A stretch of DNA of 64,000 nt from Roseibacillus sp. (GTDB lineage Bacteria > Verrucomicrobiota > Verrucomicrobiia > Verrucomicrobiales > Akkermansiaceae). The translations under genes and the position numbers were made by a program. Below the pieces are notes generated by a model. The model did not search any database and was not told where the DNA came from. It saw nothing but the letters and a program-made list of their open reading frames with translations. Positions 38,563 to 47,409 of this stretch are shown here, one piece after another (the stretch's first letter is position 1; each line of letters starts with the position of its first letter). The DNA lies in assembly GCA_002686085.1 (NCBI GenBank), contig NZAC01000012.1:9438-73437 (forward strand), given 5' to 3'.

Positions 38563-41500
38563 ATGTCCCGCTGGAACACTCTGGCTCTCTCCATTTTTCT
38601 CTCCATCCTCCTGCCAAAATTGGGGGCAGCTCCCAGCTCTTCGCCCCTCACCGCTCCTTCCTCTGGAGGAGAGTCAGGCCCGAGGTTTACCACCTTGCCT
38701 CCGGAACAGACCGGGATCCTGTCTGTAAACCCGATTGACATATCCCATCCTCTGAAACGCTTGTATACCTCTGCCCTAGGCGGAGGCGGTATCGCTGCTG
38801 GGGACTTTGACGGCGACGACCAGTGCGACCTCTATTTTGTCTCTGGCGCCCGCACCAACACTCTTTACCGCAACAGAGGTAGCGGGAGGTTTGAAGATAT
38901 CTCCCGGGCTGCAGGAGTGGACGGGGGAAGCGCATGGGGGTCCGGAGTGGCCGCAGTCGATATTGATGGCGATAAAGATTTAGACCTCTACATCTGTAAT
39001 TATGGCTCTCCCAACCAGCTCTTCGTGAATGACGGGAAGGGGAAATTTGTGGAATCGGCTTCGCGCTTTGGACTCGCTCTCAGTGGGGCATTCGCGATGG
39101 CAGCATTTGCGGACTACGACCTTGATGGCGACCTCGATGTCTATCTCCTTGGACACAGATTCTACCGTGCTGGGGGCCGCCCTAACCGTCCCGTTACAAT
39201 ATTAAAGGACGGCCGCAATCAGATGCTTCCTGAATTCGAAAACTACTACGGGGTCTCCGAGCGCAGGGGGAACATGAAAATCAACAATGTTGGGGCCCCC
39301 GACAAACTTCTTCGCAACGACGGCGGTCGTTTTGTGGAAGTCACCCAGCCTGCTGGCATCTCTACGAATCGCTATCACGGCAATTCCGTCACCTGGTGGG
39401 ATTTCAACCATGATGGACTCCCTGACATCTACGTCGGCAATGACTTTGAAGATCCTGATCTTCTCTACCGCAATAATGGCAATGGCACTTTCTCGGATGT
39501 CACCCAACACCAACTGCCTCATACAAGCTGGTTCACGATGGGAGCTGACTGCGGAGACCTGAATAATGATGGCTTAATAGATTTTCTCTCCTCTGACATG
39601 GCGGGAACTACACATTACAAGTCAAAGACCACGATGGGAATGATGGGCGCATCAACCTGGTTCATGCAGAATACTGTCCCGGCGCAATACATGCGCAACT
39701 GTCTCTACGTGAATACTGGGACAGGACGATTTCATGAGACTGCCTTCCTCTCAGGACTTGCCTACTCGGATTGGACTTGGGCTGTGAAAATGGGGGATCT
39801 CGATTGCGATGGACTCCTCGATGTCTTCATGTCGAACGGGATGACTCGGAATTTTAACAACTCTGACAATCCTCTCGATGTCCGAAAACTGCACGGCCAG
39901 ACCGAGTGGGATCTTTATGAGGGCACTCCTACCCGTCCAGAACAGAACCTCTCTTTCCGCAATCTCGGCGCGCTCAAATTTGTCGATAACAGCAAGAGCT
40001 GGGGCCTTGCAAAGACTGGCATGAGCTATGGCGCGGTATGGTTTGATCTGGAAGGTGATGGAGACCTTGATCTTGCTGTTGCGAATCTCAATGAGCCTCC
40101 CTCTATTCACCGCAACGACACTGCCGACGCCAATCGAGTCATCGTGAGACTGGAAGGCTCCGGCGCAAACACATCTGGTATTGGATCTACCCTGAAGATC
40201 ACAACCAAGGAAGGCCTTCAGATTCGCCAGTTCAATCCGATGCGAGGCTTTAGCTCATGTGACGAGAACTCTATTCAGTTCGGACTCGGAACGTCCGATA
40301 TTATTCAAAGTTTGACCGTAACATGGCCCGGAGGCCTCGAGGCAACCTATCGAGACCTCGCTGCGAATCGAAAATACACCCTCTATCAGCGTGATGCCGT
40401 CCCTCCAAAGATCAAACCCCGGGCTCCGGCGCCTCTTTTCCGCTCAAGCAGCGCATTAGCCGCGGCCCGGCATTGGGAAATGCCGTTTAACGATTTCCGA
40501 CTTCAACCACTCCTCCCCAACCGCCAATCCCAATGGGGGCCATCTCTGGCATGCGGAGACATCGACGGGGACGGAGACGAAGACTTTTTCCTCGGTGGAT
40601 GCGCAGGGTATCTTGGCACCCTGATCATAAATCAGGGCGCTGGAAAATACACGACACAACCGTTCACGGCCGCGAGCGCCCATAAGACCAGCGAGGACCT
40701 TGGAGCCTTGTTTTTTGACTGTGACGGTGACAACGACCTTGATCTGGTGGTTGCCAGCGGCAGCGTCGAGCACCCGCCAGCCAACCCTGCGTATGCGGAC
40801 CGGATTTATCTGAATGACGGTAAGGGCTACTTTGTCCCAGCGAAATCTGGATCGCTCCCGACCAATCTTGATAGTAGCAGTGTCATTGCCACTGCAGACT
40901 TTGATCGAGACGGCGATCTTGACCTCTTTATTGGAGGACGCGGCGTTCCGGGCGCCTATCCCACTGCCACGGGCAGCAGGCTACTTCGCAATTCAAATGG
41001 AAAGTTCACCGACGTATCCAAGCTGTCTCCAGCTCTGACGGAGAAGCGTATTGTCACTGGTGCGATATGGTCCGACGCCGACGGGGACGGATGGGTTGAT
41101 TTGCTTATCAGCACCGAGTGGGGACCCATCCAGTTTCTCCGGAACGACAAGGGTAAACTTGTTGACGCGACAGAGGAGTCCGGACTCAGCCCCTTTCTTG
41201 GATGGTGGACGGGCATTAATGGCGCAGATATTGATCATGATGGAGATATCGATTTTCTAGTCACTAATTTTGGATTAAACACGAAATACAAGGCTAGCTC
41301 CAAGATGCCTGAGGTGCTTTTCTACGGCGACTTTGAAAACTCGGGTCGCAAACGAATCGTTGAAGCAGGTTTTGAGGGTGGCGTTTGCTACCCGCACCGT
41401 GGGTTCAGCTGCTCCCGGAACGCCATGCCTTTTGTTGGCAGCAAGCTTAAGACTTTTCATAATTTTGCTAGTGCTGCTCTCCCCGAAATTTATCCCCGTA

Positions 41501-42183
41501 GCAGCCTTGGGAAGTCTCTGCGAATGGAGGCTAACACTCTTGAATCCGGCATATTCCGGAACGACGGCACGGGCAACTTTACCTTTGAGGCTCTCCCCCG
41601 CCTTGCTCAGGCATCTCCTTCCTTTGGTTCCTCATTTCTCGACGCAACCGGAGACGGACACCCTGATATCTTCCTCGCACAAAACTTTTTCGGCCCTCAG
41701 ATCGAAACGCGACCGATGGTCGGCGGCCTTGGACTGATCCTCGAGGGTGATGGAGCTGGAAACTTTAAAGCCGTGTCTCCAGCGGCCAGCGGCATCGTTA
41801 TTCCTGAGGACGCAAAGAGCGTTATCTCCTCGGATCTGAACGGAGATGGGCGACTCGACCTGATGGTGGGAATCAATGATGGGCCCGTGCGATCTTTCAT
41901 CCGAACCGGAGGCCCCCTCCCCTATCAGGTTGTCCTCGAGGGCCCTGCTGGTAATCGTAGCGGTATCGGGGCTCGGATTTCCATCCAGCTTTCTGATCAA
42001 AGTATTCGGACCGGAGAAATTCGAGCTGGCGCAGGCTACCTGTCACAGACCCCAGCCCTCTTCAACTTCACCACGCCTGAGGGCATCAGCCCCACCACTT
42101 CAAAGGTTCAATGGCCAGATGGTACTGTGACGCAATCGCCTTTCCCAGCGGGAAAGAGAGAGCTTCGCATCAGGAAACCTTAG
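38563..42183 (+). CDS. Secreted FG-GAP/VCBS repeat protein with two UnbV domains (CRTAC1 type)
   Basis: A 1206-residue exported protein. Signal peptide: LALSIFLSILLPKLGAA. It has two tandem halves, each an FG-GAP/VCBS beta-propeller followed by an ASPIC/UnbV domain. Calcium-binding FG-GAP blades are numerous (DFDGDDQCDLYFVSG, DIDGDKDLDLYICN, DYDLDGDLDVYLLG, DIDGDGDEDFFLGG, DFDRDGDLDLFIGG). The UnbV domains lie at about 530-610 (TSGIGSTLKITT, TVTWPGG) and at the C-terminus (RSGIGARISIQL, KVQWPDGT). Such proteins resemble cartilage acidic protein 1 and are expanded in this phylum; their role is unknown, probably adhesion or binding at the surface. It is convergent, 8 bp apart, with the selenoprotein candidate of the same superfamily. 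Confidence 0.88.
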   Translation: MSRWNTLALSIFLSILLPKLGAAPSSSPLTAPSSGGESGPRFTTLPPEQTGILSVNPIDISHPLKRLYTSALGGGGIAAGDFDGDDQCDLYFVSGARTNTLYRNRGSGRFEDISRAAGVDGGSAWGSGVAAVDIDGDKDLDLYICNYGSPNQLFVNDGKGKFVESASRFGLALSGAFAMAAFADYDLDGDLDVYLLGHRFYRAGGRPNRPVTILKDGRNQMLPEFENYYGVSERRGNMKINNVGAPDKLLRNDGGRFVEVTQPAGISTNRYHGNSVTWWDFNHDGLPDIYVGNDFEDPDLLYRNNGNGTFSDVTQHQLPHTSWFTMGADCGDLNNDGLIDFLSSDMAGTTHYKSKTTMGMMGASTWFMQNTVPAQYMRNCLYVNTGTGRFHETAFLSGLAYSDWTWAVKMGDLDCDGLLDVFMSNGMTRNFNNSDNPLDVRKLHGQTEWDLYEGTPTRPEQNLSFRNLGALKFVDNSKSWGLAKTGMSYGAVWFDLEGDGDLDLAVANLNEPPSIHRNDTADANRVIVRLEGSGANTSGIGSTLKITTKEGLQIRQFNPMRGFSSCDENSIQFGLGTSDIIQSLTVTWPGGLEATYRDLAANRKYTLYQRDAVPPKIKPRAPAPLFRSSSALAAARHWEMPFNDFRLQPLLPNRQSQWGPSLACGDIDGDGDEDFFLGGCAGYLGTLIINQGAGKYTTQPFTAASAHKTSEDLGALFFDCDGDNDLDLVVASGSVEHPPANPAYADRIYLNDGKGYFVPAKSGSLPTNLDSSSVIATADFDRDGDLDLFIGGRGVPGAYPTATGSRLLRNSNGKFTDVSKLSPALTEKRIVTGAIWSDADGDGWVDLLISTEWGPIQFLRNDKGKLVDATEESGLSPFLGWWTGINGADIDHDGDIDFLVTNFGLNTKYKASSKMPEVLFYGDFENSGRKRIVEAGFEGGVCYPHRGFSCSRNAMPFVGSKLKTFHNFASAALPEIYPRSSLGKSLRMEANTLESGIFRNDGTGNFTFEALPRLAQASPSFGSSFLDATGDGHPDIFLAQNFFGPQIETRPMVGGLGLILEGDGAGNFKAVSPAASGIVIPEDAKSVISSDLNGDGRLDLMVGINDGPVRSFIRTGGPLPYQVVLEGPAGNRSGIGARISIQLSDQSIRTGEIRAGAGYLSQTPALFNFTTPEGISPTTSKVQWPDGTVTQSPFPAGKRELRIRKP

Positions 42184-42191
42184 CGACCGCT

Positions 42192-45100
42192 TTACTTCTT
42201 CGTTCGCATACTCCGGACACGAGAGAGATTTCGACGAGCCATTGTCGATCCTGGCTGTATATTGAGAGCCTGAATAAGGCGTTGCTCAGCGACCGCCAGG
42301 TTACCCGCATCGATATGAAAGATGCCCAGGTTGATGAGTCCAGGAACGAATTGGGGATTCACCCTTATACATTTCTCGAAAGCCTGTCCCGCCTCTTCAA
42401 GGAGACCGACACGCTTACAAGCCAACCCCAAATTGTTGAGTGCGTCCGCATTTTGAGAATCGAGGGAAACCGCCTTTCGCAGAGGCTCTAACGCGCTCGT
42501 GGCCTGGTTGAGAGAAAGATAAATCAAACCAAGATGGTTAAAGCCTTCAGCAAAATCAGGGTTCACCTCAGTCTCCTTTTCGAAATACTGTTTTGCTGCA
42601 GGTAAATCACCGCGTTTTGCATGCAATAACCCAAGAGCATCATTCACCTTTGGAAGAGCAGGATCTAGCTCCAAAGCCCTTAGTAAACTGGTCTGCGCCG
42701 CCGGGCTTTGCCCAAGTGCATCGAGCGAAAGACCAAGATTCATATGCCCGGCCGCAAAATCTTCTCGAACCGACAGGGCCCTCTGATAAGCCGCAACAGC
42801 CTTGGCATGCTGGCCCGCTGTAGCATGGACCAACCCGAGATTATTCGCGGCCTCCGCGAAATCTGGAGTCACCGAAAGGGTATCCCGAAATTGAACCTCA
42901 GCAGCCGTAAGCCATCGCCCCTGCCACATGTCCTGCGCGAATTGGAAGCGCTGAGAAACTTCGAGCTGGTCCGCTGCCACCCCGACGGTGGAATCAATGC
43001 TCTCAAGAGACACCCCCCCTAGACCTGCAGATCCTACAAGGCGCTCCCACCGAGTTAGCGATGAGTGCCCTAAATCTGCCAGAATCTTGTCCACTCCCGG
43101 AGCTCCCTTATAGAGCACTGCAAGACGCCCCTCCTTGTCGATAAGCAGACTCAACGGAATCACCAAATCGAGCTCCATCGGAGTCAATCGAACATGCAAT
43201 CGCTCGAGAATCGTGAGAATCTTTTCGTTGGCCAGCCCAGTCGCAAACGGAAGACCCATTCTCTCAGCCCGTTTTTTTGCATCAGAGGGATCTCCCTCAT
43301 CCTGCCCGACGCCATCGAGTGCAAGCGCAACGACGTCTACTCCGGCCGCCTCCAAATCCTCAAACCTGTCTTTAAAGTCTTCCAACTCTGACAGGCACGG
43401 AGCGCACCAGCTCGCCCACAGATTCAAAAGCGTAAACCGACCAACCTTAGGTATCTTCGCAGCTCTCCCCTTCATGTCCTGATACTCCAGCTTGGGAACT
43501 TTCAACAAGGTAACCATCGGAACTCTCACAGTATCTGAGGAAAGACCAGGACTTGTTACACCAGGTTTGAGAGCAAGATCAGAGGACGGGCGCTCCCAAC
43601 GCAAAGGCATACTCCCTTCAGTCAGGTGGTAATGTCCATCTGCAGCCAAATTCTCGATCTTACTCACTGCCCCACCCGGCCACCGAACAGTTACCGCAAC
43701 ATCTCCGCTAAACTCCCCCAATCCAAAAACCAACCCCTTACTCGATTGCGCAAGATAACCATCGCCGGCGCGCACTGTCTTGACGATCGCCTGTTCCCTT
43801 CCAGGAACCACTATCTCGACTCGAGCGCCAATCGCGTCGCGGTTGCCCTTTTTTCCCTCCAAGCGAAGACCAAGAAACCGTCCAGCACGTGGAGCATCAT
43901 TTCTAAGAAAGCGCAATTGGGGAGCAGTCCGATTCGAGATCCAGAAATCAAGATCTCCGTCATGATCCCAGTCAACAAGGCACAAAGACCTGCCATCCTC
44001 TGGATAGTCCATACCGGAAATTGCGGATACGTTGGCAAACCGTTGTATCCTTCCCTTATCGTTAGCCCCAAGGTGAAGATACATGCAATGGCGCTCGCGA
44101 CCGCTCCACGAACGGCCCCTCTTCATCATCCTTGAGAGATCAATATGCGCCGAGGAAGGTTCTCTGGAGGTAGCTTGATGAGAACGCGACACGACCTGCC
44201 GCCAGAAAAAACTTCATAAGTCTCCCGTATCGGGAGTAGTGATATATCCATTGGCTACCAGAAGATCTTCCCACCCATCGTTATTGATGTCTGCGAACAT
44301 GGAACTCCATGCCCAGCGACCCATTGTCACTCCCAACTCCTCACTTGCATCCCGGAACTTTCCTTCTTCCTGCACAAGGAGAGTATTGCCGCGAGCGAAT
44401 CGAAGGAGAGCTCCTCTCGTCTCTGCCGAGGACCCCGGACTGAACCCTTCCTGGGGCGCAATCCGATTGCCTGCTGCCGAGAACATATTGGCCACATAAA
44501 GATCCATCACCCCGTCCCTATCGGCATCACCCCACGAAACAGACATTCCGGAGGCTCGATCCTCCCCCTGAACCTCGGGCGCAACATCGACAAACCTACC
44601 ATTATCATTTCGGTATAAATTGTTACGGCCAAAATCATTCGCCACGTAGAGATCCTGATCTCCGTCGTTGTCATAATCCTCCCATCCCGCAGCGAGACTG
44701 AATCTCCGATTGTTCACATCCAAGCCGACTTCTTCTGTCACATCCTGGAAGTCCCAGGATCCAGACTGGATTTCATTCCGATACAGATAATTACGGCCGG
44801 CATTGTTGGCGTCGTGGTAAACGAACTGCCCTCCCGATCCTATAACCGTAGCTCCAGCCTCAAGGTCAAGGTCTCCCCTGCTGTAATGACAGACATAAAG
44901 ATCCAGATCTCCATCACCGTCGTAATCTGCCGCCGAAACACCCATCGCCCCTATGCCGAGCTCCATGATTCCCGCTACCGAGAAGCGCCCTTTACCGTCA
45001 TTGCGCGAGACAACCATTCGGGCGTAGGAAGCAATAACCAAATCCTGATCACCGTCATTATCGAGATCTACAAAGAGCGCACTACGACAGGATTCAACCC

Positions 45101-46082
45101 AACCTGTCCCGGACTCCTCCGTGAAGTCCCTTAGACTGCCATTGGGCTGCTGGACAAAAAGACGATTGGGAAGACCACCCGGCTGGCAGAGATAGAGATC
45201 CTCCAAACCATCGCCATTAACGTCACCGAGGGCAGTTCCAGGAGTACCTAGTAAGGTCATTTGCCGGGTGTCCTGTATTCTCTGGAGCCAATAGGGGTAT
45301 CCCAACTGCAACTGGCGGCGGTAAGACTCATTACCCTTGAGAATTGACTCCGTGCAATCGGCGAAGAGCCTGCGTTCCCCCTCGCTCTGCTCGAATCGCT
45401 GAAGCAAGACCCCGGAGAGCATCAGCTCCTTACCGGACCCACTTCTCTTCCATGTCGTCAACCAGTCGCCATGCTGCTCTACCACCCCACTTTGATCTAT
45501 TCTCGCACACTCAATCAGAACTCTGGCGTGCACCAGTTCCTGTTCCACCTTCAACTCAACAACCTTAAAGCTGCAGCGGCGGGACTTGGCCTCTCCACCG
45601 AGGGCATTTGGAATCATCTGCAATGCTTCAGTGAACCCAGCCCGCTTCGAGTAGGACACCTCTTCCGGGACTTCTCTCCGCCGGACAACAACGCCTCCGC
45701 CACTCCAGGTATCCTCTGATATTACTGGAACTAGAACGGAGCCCTCAACATCCTGTCCTACAACTTTACTGAGCAGGTCCTGATCAAAAACATCACTGGT
45801 GACCTGACCGGATATCACCGCCAGCTTTTTCTTGAGAAGATCGTGCAATGCCTCGGACTCCCAGCCGTCTTGAACGGGATCATCGAGCTCCTTCCAATCG
45901 TTCAGCCCAGCAATAGACGATACACTCTCAAGATTCCTTGAGCTGGAGAGAGTCGCTCCCTTCCCGGGATCAGAATCGTCTTTTATCGCAACATTCCCCG
46001 ACCAGGGGCGCCAGACTAAAAGGCACGTGATAAGAAGAATCGCGATCCCCGTAATTAGCAGGAAATTCCGATTCAGCTTCAT
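42192..46082 (-). CDS. Candidate selenoprotein: FG-GAP propeller - UnbV - thioredoxin - TPR
   Basis: One continuous frame of 1297 codons, stop included, interrupted only by TGA at 44216-44214 (codon 623). Before it: a membrane anchor (LLITGIAILLITCLLVW), a linker, then FG-GAP blades (DVNGDGLEDLYLC, DLDNDGDQDLVIA, DYDGDGDLDLYVC, DYDNDGDQDLYVA, DINNDGWEDLLVANG). After it the frame continues SFFWRQVVSRS with another blade (DWDHDGDLDFWIS) and an UnbV domain (RDAIGARVEIV, VTVRWPGG). A thioredoxin-like domain follows with WCAPC at 892-896, then about seven TPRs to the end. The TGA thus cuts a propeller in two, which argues against two separate genes. A SECIS-like hairpin follows the TGA at standard distance. 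If not selenocysteine, the alternatives are a nonsense mutation, a sequencing error, or a second start at GTG 44192. Confidence 0.75.
44186..44202 (-). promoter_or_regulatory. SECIS-like hairpin downstream of in-frame UGA
   Basis: On the RNA, GCGGCA-GGUCG-UGUCGC forms a 6-bp stem (one G-U pair) closed by the pentaloop GGUCG. The loop starts after 17 nt counted from the UGA; in E. coli fdhF 18 nt precede a GGUC loop, and both share GCAGGUC or GCAGGUCG around the loop. The first loop bases are GG, as bacterial SECIS elements need. There is no bulged U like that of fdhF. A lower partial pairing (AGGU with ACCU, 44196-44193 with 44170-44167) would compete rather than add. Confidence 0.7.
44214..44216 (-). 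other. In-frame UGA, proposed selenocysteine codon 623
   Basis: The TGA lies in TTA-TGA-AGT-TTT-TTC-TGG, i.e. GDL-U-SFFW. Open frame continues unbroken on both sides. Other genes here (lexA, bioF, the DUF3500 gene) use TGA as a true stop, so general reassignment is excluded. Confidence 0.72.
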
Positions 46083-46211: not shown

Positions 46212-47057
46212 CTATCGGAGTGGACCGGATGGACTTCCATCCGGGCGAGACGCCACCGTTTCCCCGTTGCTACTCCAATAACTCGCACCGAGAATTTTCC
46301 CACCTTCATATCGGACCGCACTCTGACGCTGTCCATTTTCGTAGTAGGTTTCCCAGTCACCATCCTGATTTCCATCAACGTAGTTTCCTTCCATCATCGT
46401 TTGCCCGTTGGGCCATGATTGGGTGAAGTTCCCATGAAGGACTCCGTTTGCATAATTTCTCTCACCGACAAGCTCCCCATTCTCATGCCACCCCTTCCAC
46501 GTTCCTTCGTAGTTATTATCCCTGTAGACCCCCTGCATGGACCGCTGTCCGTTCCGATGCCAGACCAATGCCCTTCCGTTTTTCTTTCCATTCTCCATCC
46601 TTTCCAAGGCGCTCAACTTGCCATCTGAGCTCACTTGTTTGACCCATCCCTCAAACGCATCCTCCTGACCTTTCTCGTAGTAGAGTCCATCCTCACCCAA
46701 TTCGAGAGCCTCCCCAACCTCTAAAGCCACTTTCAACGCCTCCTCTACCTCTTCCTGGCTGAATGAAGAATCCTGTGGCTCGGGCTCTGGGGTTGGCTCA
46801 GGCTCTGGGGTTGGCTCGGGCTCAGGAGTTGGCTCGGGCTCAGGAGTTGGCTCGGGCTCTGGAGTTGGCTCGGGCTCAGGAGTTGGCTCGGGCTCAGGAG
46901 TTGGCTCGGGCTCAGGAGTTGGCTCGGGCTCTGGTGCGACGACAGGCCTTGCCTCGGACTTCGCAGGAATCTTGGGATTCGTGGCCTCTTGCTCTTTTTC
47001 TCCGCAGCCAAAAAAGAAGAGAGTTGCCAAAATAAGTAGACTCGAAAAGGGTTTCAT
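46212..47057 (-). CDS. Lipoprotein with Pro-Glu repeat stalk and MORN-variant (YwqK-like) repeats
   Basis: A 281-residue lipoprotein. ATG 47057 was chosen because it directly precedes the signal and lipobox ([16 protein letters not shown], Cys about residue 18); the frame extends 19 codons further upstream. A PEPEPT stalk of about 50 residues is followed by a helical acidic segment ([19 protein letters not shown]) and several MORN-variant repeats as in the YwqK family ([53 protein letters not shown]). The stalk probably lifts the repeat domain off the membrane. Function unknown. It lies just upstream of the selenoprotein candidate on the same strand (129-bp gap). Confidence 0.85.
46777..46934 (-). 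repeat. 18-bp tandem repeat coding PEPEPT
   Basis: About eight copies of an 18-bp unit (plus strand GGCTCGGGCTCAGGAGTT) with a partial ninth. Copies differ at a few fixed positions (TCT/TCA, GGGG/GGAG). The unit length is a multiple of three, so copy-number changes would keep the reading frame and alter only stalk length. Confidence 0.93.
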
Positions 47058-47409
47058 ATCTTCCAGAGGATAGAGCACCCGACTGAAAAGCGCCAACCCA
47101 TAATTAGGCACCAAAATGCTCTAACCTAGAAATACCTGACATTCACCCTGCCCCTCTCTTTAGGAAGGCTCCGAAATGCCACCCCAAGAGCTCAAGTCAC
47201 CACGTTCACCCCAAAATATTGATCTCCCTGCGAACAAAGATCAGCCTAACACCCAAGAACCGCAAAGGGGACTTGCATCTGCCCGTTTTCATATTCTTCC
47301 TTGAGGCTATCCTTGAAAGTTACACTCGCGCGCAGATGACCTTTCAAAACGGTCATCAGCCACAGCGTGCTAATTCTGCGGAGAGCACAACGTCTCTTGC
47401 CCTATCAAT
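47058..47409. other. Intergenic region between lipoprotein and P450 genes
   Basis: 352 bp between divergent genes. I see no convincing coding frame and no RNA gene. The only structure noted is the inverted repeat near the P450 gene at 47335-47357, with a TTGAAA (47313-47318) upstream that could serve as a -35 element. Confidence 0.6.
47335..47357. promoter_or_regulatory. Inverted repeat upstream of P450 gene
   Basis: GATGACC-N9-GGTCATC, a perfect 7-bp inverted repeat with spacer TTTCAAAAC, centred about 65 bp before the P450 start. The size fits an operator for a dimeric regulator. No regulator gene is adjacent and no terminator-like T run follows it. Confidence 0.45.

Follow-up and report, generated by a model that had tools for sequence, protein, structure and literature searches.

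Two long open reading frames of 622 and 666 residues lie in tandem on the minus strand of the window (the whole 64,000-nucleotide stretch of Roseibacillus sp. DNA analysed here), and the locus raises the question of whether they are separate genes or a single gene whose in-frame UGA is read as selenocysteine (Sec). Read from 46082 to 42192, the sequence forms one frame of 1296 codons that is open except for a single TGA at codon 623, where gene calling divides it into the two ORFs. The first possible start past the TGA is a GTG at position 44192, seven codons on, and the intervening codons read SFFWRQV. This reading bears out an earlier note on the locus, which had joined the two frames through the TGA and had pointed to the same seven codons as a protein-like continuation. 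The read-through protein is composed of a hydrophobic segment, an N-terminal domain without assignment, an FG-GAP propeller, a UnbV/ASPIC domain, a TlpA/AhpC-TSA-like domain and TPR repeats, in that order (Table 1). The FG-GAP and UnbV domains had already been named in the earlier note; Pfam agrees, adds the AhpC-TSA and TPR assignments, and finds the propeller followed by UnbV/ASPIC in all 34 aligned members. The convergent neighbour (window 38563-42183) encodes a double FG-GAP/UnbV protein of 1206 residues without a TGA, matches to which adjoin the Sec gene in related MAGs. The upstream gene (window 46212-47114) contains a long repeat followed by MORN-like repeats.

Table 1. Features of the selenoprotein gene, in window positions
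Feature	Position	Strand	Basis
Whole gene read through the UGA: 1296-residue putative exported FG-GAP/UnbV/TlpA-like/TPR selenoprotein	42192..46082	-	Single frame with one TGA; full-length homologues with the same lone TGA; Pfam
In-frame UGA, codon 623, putative Sec	44214..44216	-	Same column in ~100 distinct homologues of two phyla; Cys there in distant homologues
SECIS hairpin, 6-bp stem, 5-nt loop GGUCG (44196-44192), 17 nt from UGA to loop	44186..44202	-	Covariation; consensus fold; pairing 98.8% vs 55%; synonymous-codon test
N-terminal hydrophobic segment FLLITGIAILLITCLLVW, probable signal anchor or export signal	46008..46064	-	Composition
FG-GAP beta-propeller (CRTAC1 fold)	43896..45236	-	Pfam FG-GAP_3; AlphaFold; Foldseek
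Predicted short inter-blade helix, residues 622-633, Sec at its N-terminus	44184..44219	-	Predicted model
Candidate resolving Cys666, motif ERxC	44085..44087	-	Cys in 75/105 Sec vs 1/25 sense proteins
UnbV/ASPIC domain	43629..43835	-	Pfam PF07593, E 1.9e-14
TlpA/AhpC-TSA-like thioredoxin-fold domain	43122..43499	-	Pfam PF00578, E 1e-8
CxxC (WASWCAPC) of the TlpA-like domain, proposed Sec reductant	43395..43406	-	CxxC in 85/90 Sec vs 2/19 sense proteins; where sense homologues retain the domain, its Cys are replaced
C-terminal TPR repeats	42213..42908	-	Pfam TPR families

About 100 distinct homologues, spread over Verrucomicrobiota and Planctomycetota, share the TGA at this column, in the context DL-U-S-x-x-W-R-Q-V, and the S-x-x-W-R-Q-V segment that follows it is among the best-conserved parts of the protein. 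Among 143 relatives, essentially each full-length homologue contains exactly one stop, and that stop is a TGA. Inner TAA or TAG codons were flagged in some Verrucomicrobiota homologues; where printed, these stops lie at the end of the match and off the Sec column. The Roseibacillus genome encodes six long copies including the window gene, and the other five (C9:34326, C29:13423, C19:63496, C2:80162 and C36:3325) share 41-47% identity with it. Each of these has a single TGA and the same SECIS, and standard annotation would show all five as split genes. What the earlier note put forward as a candidate selenoprotein is conserved at its TGA column, but its scope is about 100 homologues instead of one gene. 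A lone stop in one gene could come from faulty assembly or from gene decay through a nonsense mutation, but the same codon in the same column in some 100 distinct sequences from independent assemblies, among them all six long paralogues of this genome and with no other stop, refutes that explanation, to which we assign a negligible probability.

The family is unevenly distributed. Planctomycetota genomes contain several copies each; in Verrucomicrobiota at large, any match (E 1e-30) is found in 7 of 388 genomes and UGA members in two, this genome and one distant lineage. A plasmid search returned distant CRTAC1-like proteins only. Among the genes neighbouring the paralogues (alginate lyase, CotH, PhoD, DUF1552, a PQQ propeller and P450) we found no common theme, so gene context yields no substrate. 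A shorter FG-GAP/UnbV gene of another subfamily in the same genome (L056/L058, C1:194932-196545) has its own in-frame TGA in this column (HDL-U-AAF) and, beyond it, a perfectly paired 8-bp hairpin, UCCGGUGC-GGUC-GCAUCGGA; judged from its sequence, it would represent a second selenoprotein type on the same fold. A divergent UGA subfamily (L176, L177 and L179) reads DL-U-PPFWKSVV and has a different short hairpin (GUGUG-GUUG-CACAC type), which may be an alternative form of SECIS at this site. On one Planctomycetota contig (L209, G143:C105; 3013-5427 and 14048-16507), FG-GAP/UnbV genes that lack Sec (804-819 residues) alternate with Sec genes, and one of the former overlaps a Sec gene by 23 nt, an arrangement that suggests an operon pair.

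The residues found at the Sec column in sense-codon homologues are varied. The nearer ones, all from Planctomycetota in our sample, have E, A, Q, N, R, D, H or S at this position, and Cys is present in none of 23, a pattern that is unusual for a catalytic Sec and counts against one. The rule suggested by the Planctomycetota sample, that Cys never replaces Sec, was overturned by a wider Verrucomicrobiota search, in which three distant homologues (L212, L215 and L219) contain Cys at the column (KDYCSNFW, RDYCTSYW and RDYCTSFW, respectively); a classical Sec/Cys pair therefore exists, only at a distance. Other distant Verrucomicrobiota homologues have Asp, Gly or Met. The earlier note had looked to homologues with Cys or Sec at this column for support, and the comparison gives a divided answer: TGA recurs in both phyla and Cys in the distant proteins, but most sense homologues have Glu, Ala, Gln, Asn, Arg or Asp. 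At least six Sec/sense changes are needed on the tree, four of them forced by well-supported branches. Sense and Cys homologues alike form a single uninterrupted chain across the site.

The genome encodes the machinery required to decode UGA as Sec. In the 3.95 Mb assembly, a tRNA-Sec scores above the Rfam cut-off and is called by ARAGORN with anticodon tca, and SelA and SelB are both encoded. SelD (L017, C20:45383-46306) contains an in-frame TGA of its own (motif SSCAG-U-ASK), followed by a hairpin, GCGCA-GGUUC-UGCGC, whose loop reads the same as that of some propeller-family members. In a sample of 392 Planctomycetota genomes, selA is present in 66 of the 69 with listed UGA members compared with 246 of 392 overall (Fisher p 5e-12). 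Verrucomicrobiota relatives follow the same pattern, with selA in every genome that has a strong UGA match save one 70%-complete assembly. TGA also serves as an ordinary stop, ending 11 of the 32 long ORFs in the window, the 622-residue ORF included. The variety of residues in sense homologues would fit a UGA read as an ordinary amino acid such as Trp, through a code change or a near-cognate tRNA; yet UGA terminates about a third of the window's long ORFs, the UGA form tracks both selA and the SECIS hairpin, and Trp occurs at the column in none of the homologues compared, so that we regard this possibility as very remote.

The Sec codon is followed by a hairpin, GCGGCA-GGUCG-UGUCGC, that begins 11 nt past the UGA. 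Bacterial SECIS elements lie 16-37 nt from the UGA and consist of a stem of 4-16 bp and a loop of 3-9 nt that has G within its first two positions; their energy is no more than -7.5 kcal/mol (PMC13188914). The window hairpin fits this layout (6 bp, 5 nt, GGUCG, 17 nt); its energy as an isolated 18-mer is -7.3 kcal/mol, slightly weaker than the threshold, which 90 of 95 family hairpins pass. When 63 nt of the window sequence are folded singly, another structure wins (shuffle z-score 0.19), and a search of Rfam returned no matching family at the hairpin. Support for the hairpin comes from the family comparison; the single window sequence gave none. Across 95 UGA genes, 563 of 570 pairing cells (98.8%) are complementary, compared with 76 of 138 (55%) in 23 sense-codon homologues that have the same peptide motif. 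None of 500 and none of 2000 shuffles reached the observed pairing, and sliding the structure along the alignment lowers pairing to 12-70%. The observed genes form 5.9 of 6 pairs and 76 of 83 have the complete stem, whereas resampling synonymous codons, with the peptide kept, yields 3.6 pairs and no more than 6 complete stems. Three pairs covary (numbered from the base after the UGA): 15-25 occurs as A-U, G-U, C-G and G-C, 17-23 as A-U and G-C, and 16-24 as C-G and G-C. The RNAalifold consensus of 80 sequences is exactly the proposed hairpin. GU fills positions 2-3 in all family loops, which read GGUCG, CGUGG, GGUUC, CGUGA or one of a few other sequences, and G is at position 2 in 95 of 95.

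These observations bear directly on whether the UGA is a true stop, with a second protein made by re-initiation at GTG 44192. Standard gene calling does yield exactly two ORFs, but the S-x-x-W-R-Q-V residues, encoded after the UGA and ahead of any start, rank with the protein's most conserved, sense and Cys homologues form one continuous chain, and the hairpin is kept in UGA genes only; two separate proteins are thus highly improbable. The decoding machinery, the conserved UGA column, the link to selA, the covarying hairpin, the Cys at the column of distant homologues and the linkage to CxxC and ERxC cysteines described below together make it very likely, on comparative sequence evidence, that UGA 623 is decoded as Sec. 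The earlier note had proposed this reading from the window alone, and its main elements hold: the hairpin with 17 nt before the loop is real by family pairing, covariation and RNAalifold, although weak in the window sequence by itself, and is absent from sense homologues; selA, selB, selD and tRNA-Sec, for which it had suggested a search, are all present in the same genome. Of the findings it had set against Sec, neither a genome without the machinery nor close homologues all without TGA or Cys was encountered.

An AlphaFold model (34 sequences; pLDDT 87.9, pTM 0.90) places Sec at residue 574, the second residue of a helix (573-584, model numbering) that is inserted between propeller strands. 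This predicted placement at a helix N-terminus would suit a reactive selenol. The top Foldseek match is murine CRTAC1 (PDB 9etn; E 2.6e-25, TM 0.75 on the target), and a sequence profile also matches CRTAC1 (E 4e-27).

The TlpA-like domain provides the best clue to function. Its CxxC is present in 92 of 97 Sec proteins and 2 of 23 sense proteins, and the difference persists after thinning (85 of 90 and 2 of 19, p 1e-13). Of 4 well-supported independent contrasts on the tree, 3.5 show Sec and CxxC changing together and none shows them changing in opposite directions, four being too few for a significant sign test. Nine sense homologues (L155-L158, L160 and L162-L165) keep the TlpA-like domain after UnbV with CxxC changed to DxxS or similar, and other sense homologues end after UnbV. 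A second candidate partner, the Cys of an ERxC motif 43 residues past Sec, is more frequent with Sec: 75 of 105 Sec proteins have it, as does 1 of 25 sense proteins. By itself it is not a consistent partner, most independent contrasts being without difference. Neither partner is obligatory, since 5 of 90 Sec proteins have no CxxC and 30 of 105 no ERxC Cys.

The linkage of Sec to CxxC and to the ERxC Cys, together with the fold data, suggests that the selenol is redox-active and is reduced by a group on its own chain. SelB and Sec-tRNA would insert Sec at UGA 623, directed by the downstream hairpin, into a protein that is probably membrane-anchored or exported. Sec would lie at the start of a short helix projecting between CRTAC1-type FG-GAP blades, where its selenol probably carries out redox chemistry on an extracytoplasmic substrate. 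In most members it probably forms a selenenylsulfide with the downstream ERxC Cys, and it would be regenerated by the CxxC of the fused TlpA-like domain, with electrons presumably passing along the same chain.

Sec could also be inserted for another purpose, with the UGA serving mainly as a switch by which selenium decides whether a short propeller or the full-length protein is made, and Sec having no catalytic role. Many sense homologues contain neither Sec nor Cys, as such a switch would allow, and the truncated product would be a free propeller lacking the UnbV, TlpA-like and TPR parts. Against a switch stand the company that Sec keeps with CxxC and the ERxC Cys, the Cys at its column in distant homologues, and a predicted position at the helix N-terminus that suits a reactive selenol, and we consider it unlikely. 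A redox relay between Sec and the TlpA-like domain is the reading that we favour, with some reserve. Extended to the family, and with a similar degree of assurance, it suggests a class of exported, self-reducing selenoenzymes in marine Verrucomicrobiota and Planctomycetota, in which the propeller Sec would be the reactive group and the fused TlpA-like CxxC its donor; this class would have multiplied into several paralogues per genome and decayed repeatedly to non-redox paralogues that lost Sec and CxxC together.

The CRTAC1-type propeller proteins described here apparently constitute a large, undescribed family of Sec proteins. Of the 119 prokaryotic selenoprotein families inventoried in 2026 (PMC13188914), none is of the FG-GAP/UnbV/CRTAC1 kind, and NCBIfam has no relevant model above its cut-off, in line with the earlier note, which knew of no selenoprotein family of this architecture. 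In the literature collection searched, no paper linked selenoproteins to UnbV or selenocysteine to VCBS; papers on FG-GAP, ASPIC or CRTAC1 were few and, by title, unrelated. Members might nevertheless be among the Planctomycete selenoproteins in the supplement of PMC4807772, or among the unvalidated candidates of a groundwater MAG study cited in PMC13188914. Standard annotation would split each member into two genes at the UGA, and screens for Cys/Sec pairs could miss the family because its nearer non-Sec homologues mostly lack Cys. The authors of PMC12013277 state that their method may not identify selenoproteins without Cys homologues, which may be one reason why the family was overlooked. 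If the Sec reading is correct, the family adds a beta-propeller fold that we did not find among described selenoproteins, and with about six copies in single genomes it may be a main use of selenium in such bacteria. A redox-active bacterial relative of CRTAC1 with a built-in thioredoxin domain would also offer a testable route to the capabilities of this fold.

CRTAC1 is a vertebrate extracellular protein; to our knowledge it is not a selenoprotein, and we know of no established biochemical activity for it. Murine CRTAC1 and the bacterial protein have the FG-GAP propeller and the UnbV/ASPIC domain in common, to which the bacterial protein adds the TlpA-like domain and TPR repeats; the profile alignment leaves the Sec helix region without a counterpart in murine CRTAC1. 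With known bacterial SECIS-dependent selenoproteins (formate dehydrogenase, SelD and the 119 families of PMC13188914), the family shares the in-frame UGA, the hairpin layout and SelA, SelB, SelD and tRNA-Sec. Most characterized selenoproteins have a thioredoxin-like fold with a redox motif (PMC13188914), whereas here the Sec is part of a propeller and no Cys stands within a few residues of it. The C-terminal TlpA/AhpC-TSA-like domain with its WCxxC motif resembles the TlpA/ResA thiol-disulfide oxidoreductases. In UGC-containing TlpA selenoproteins, Sec is located within the thioredoxin motif; here, by contrast, that motif is all Cys, and Sec is positioned about 270 residues upstream, in the propeller.
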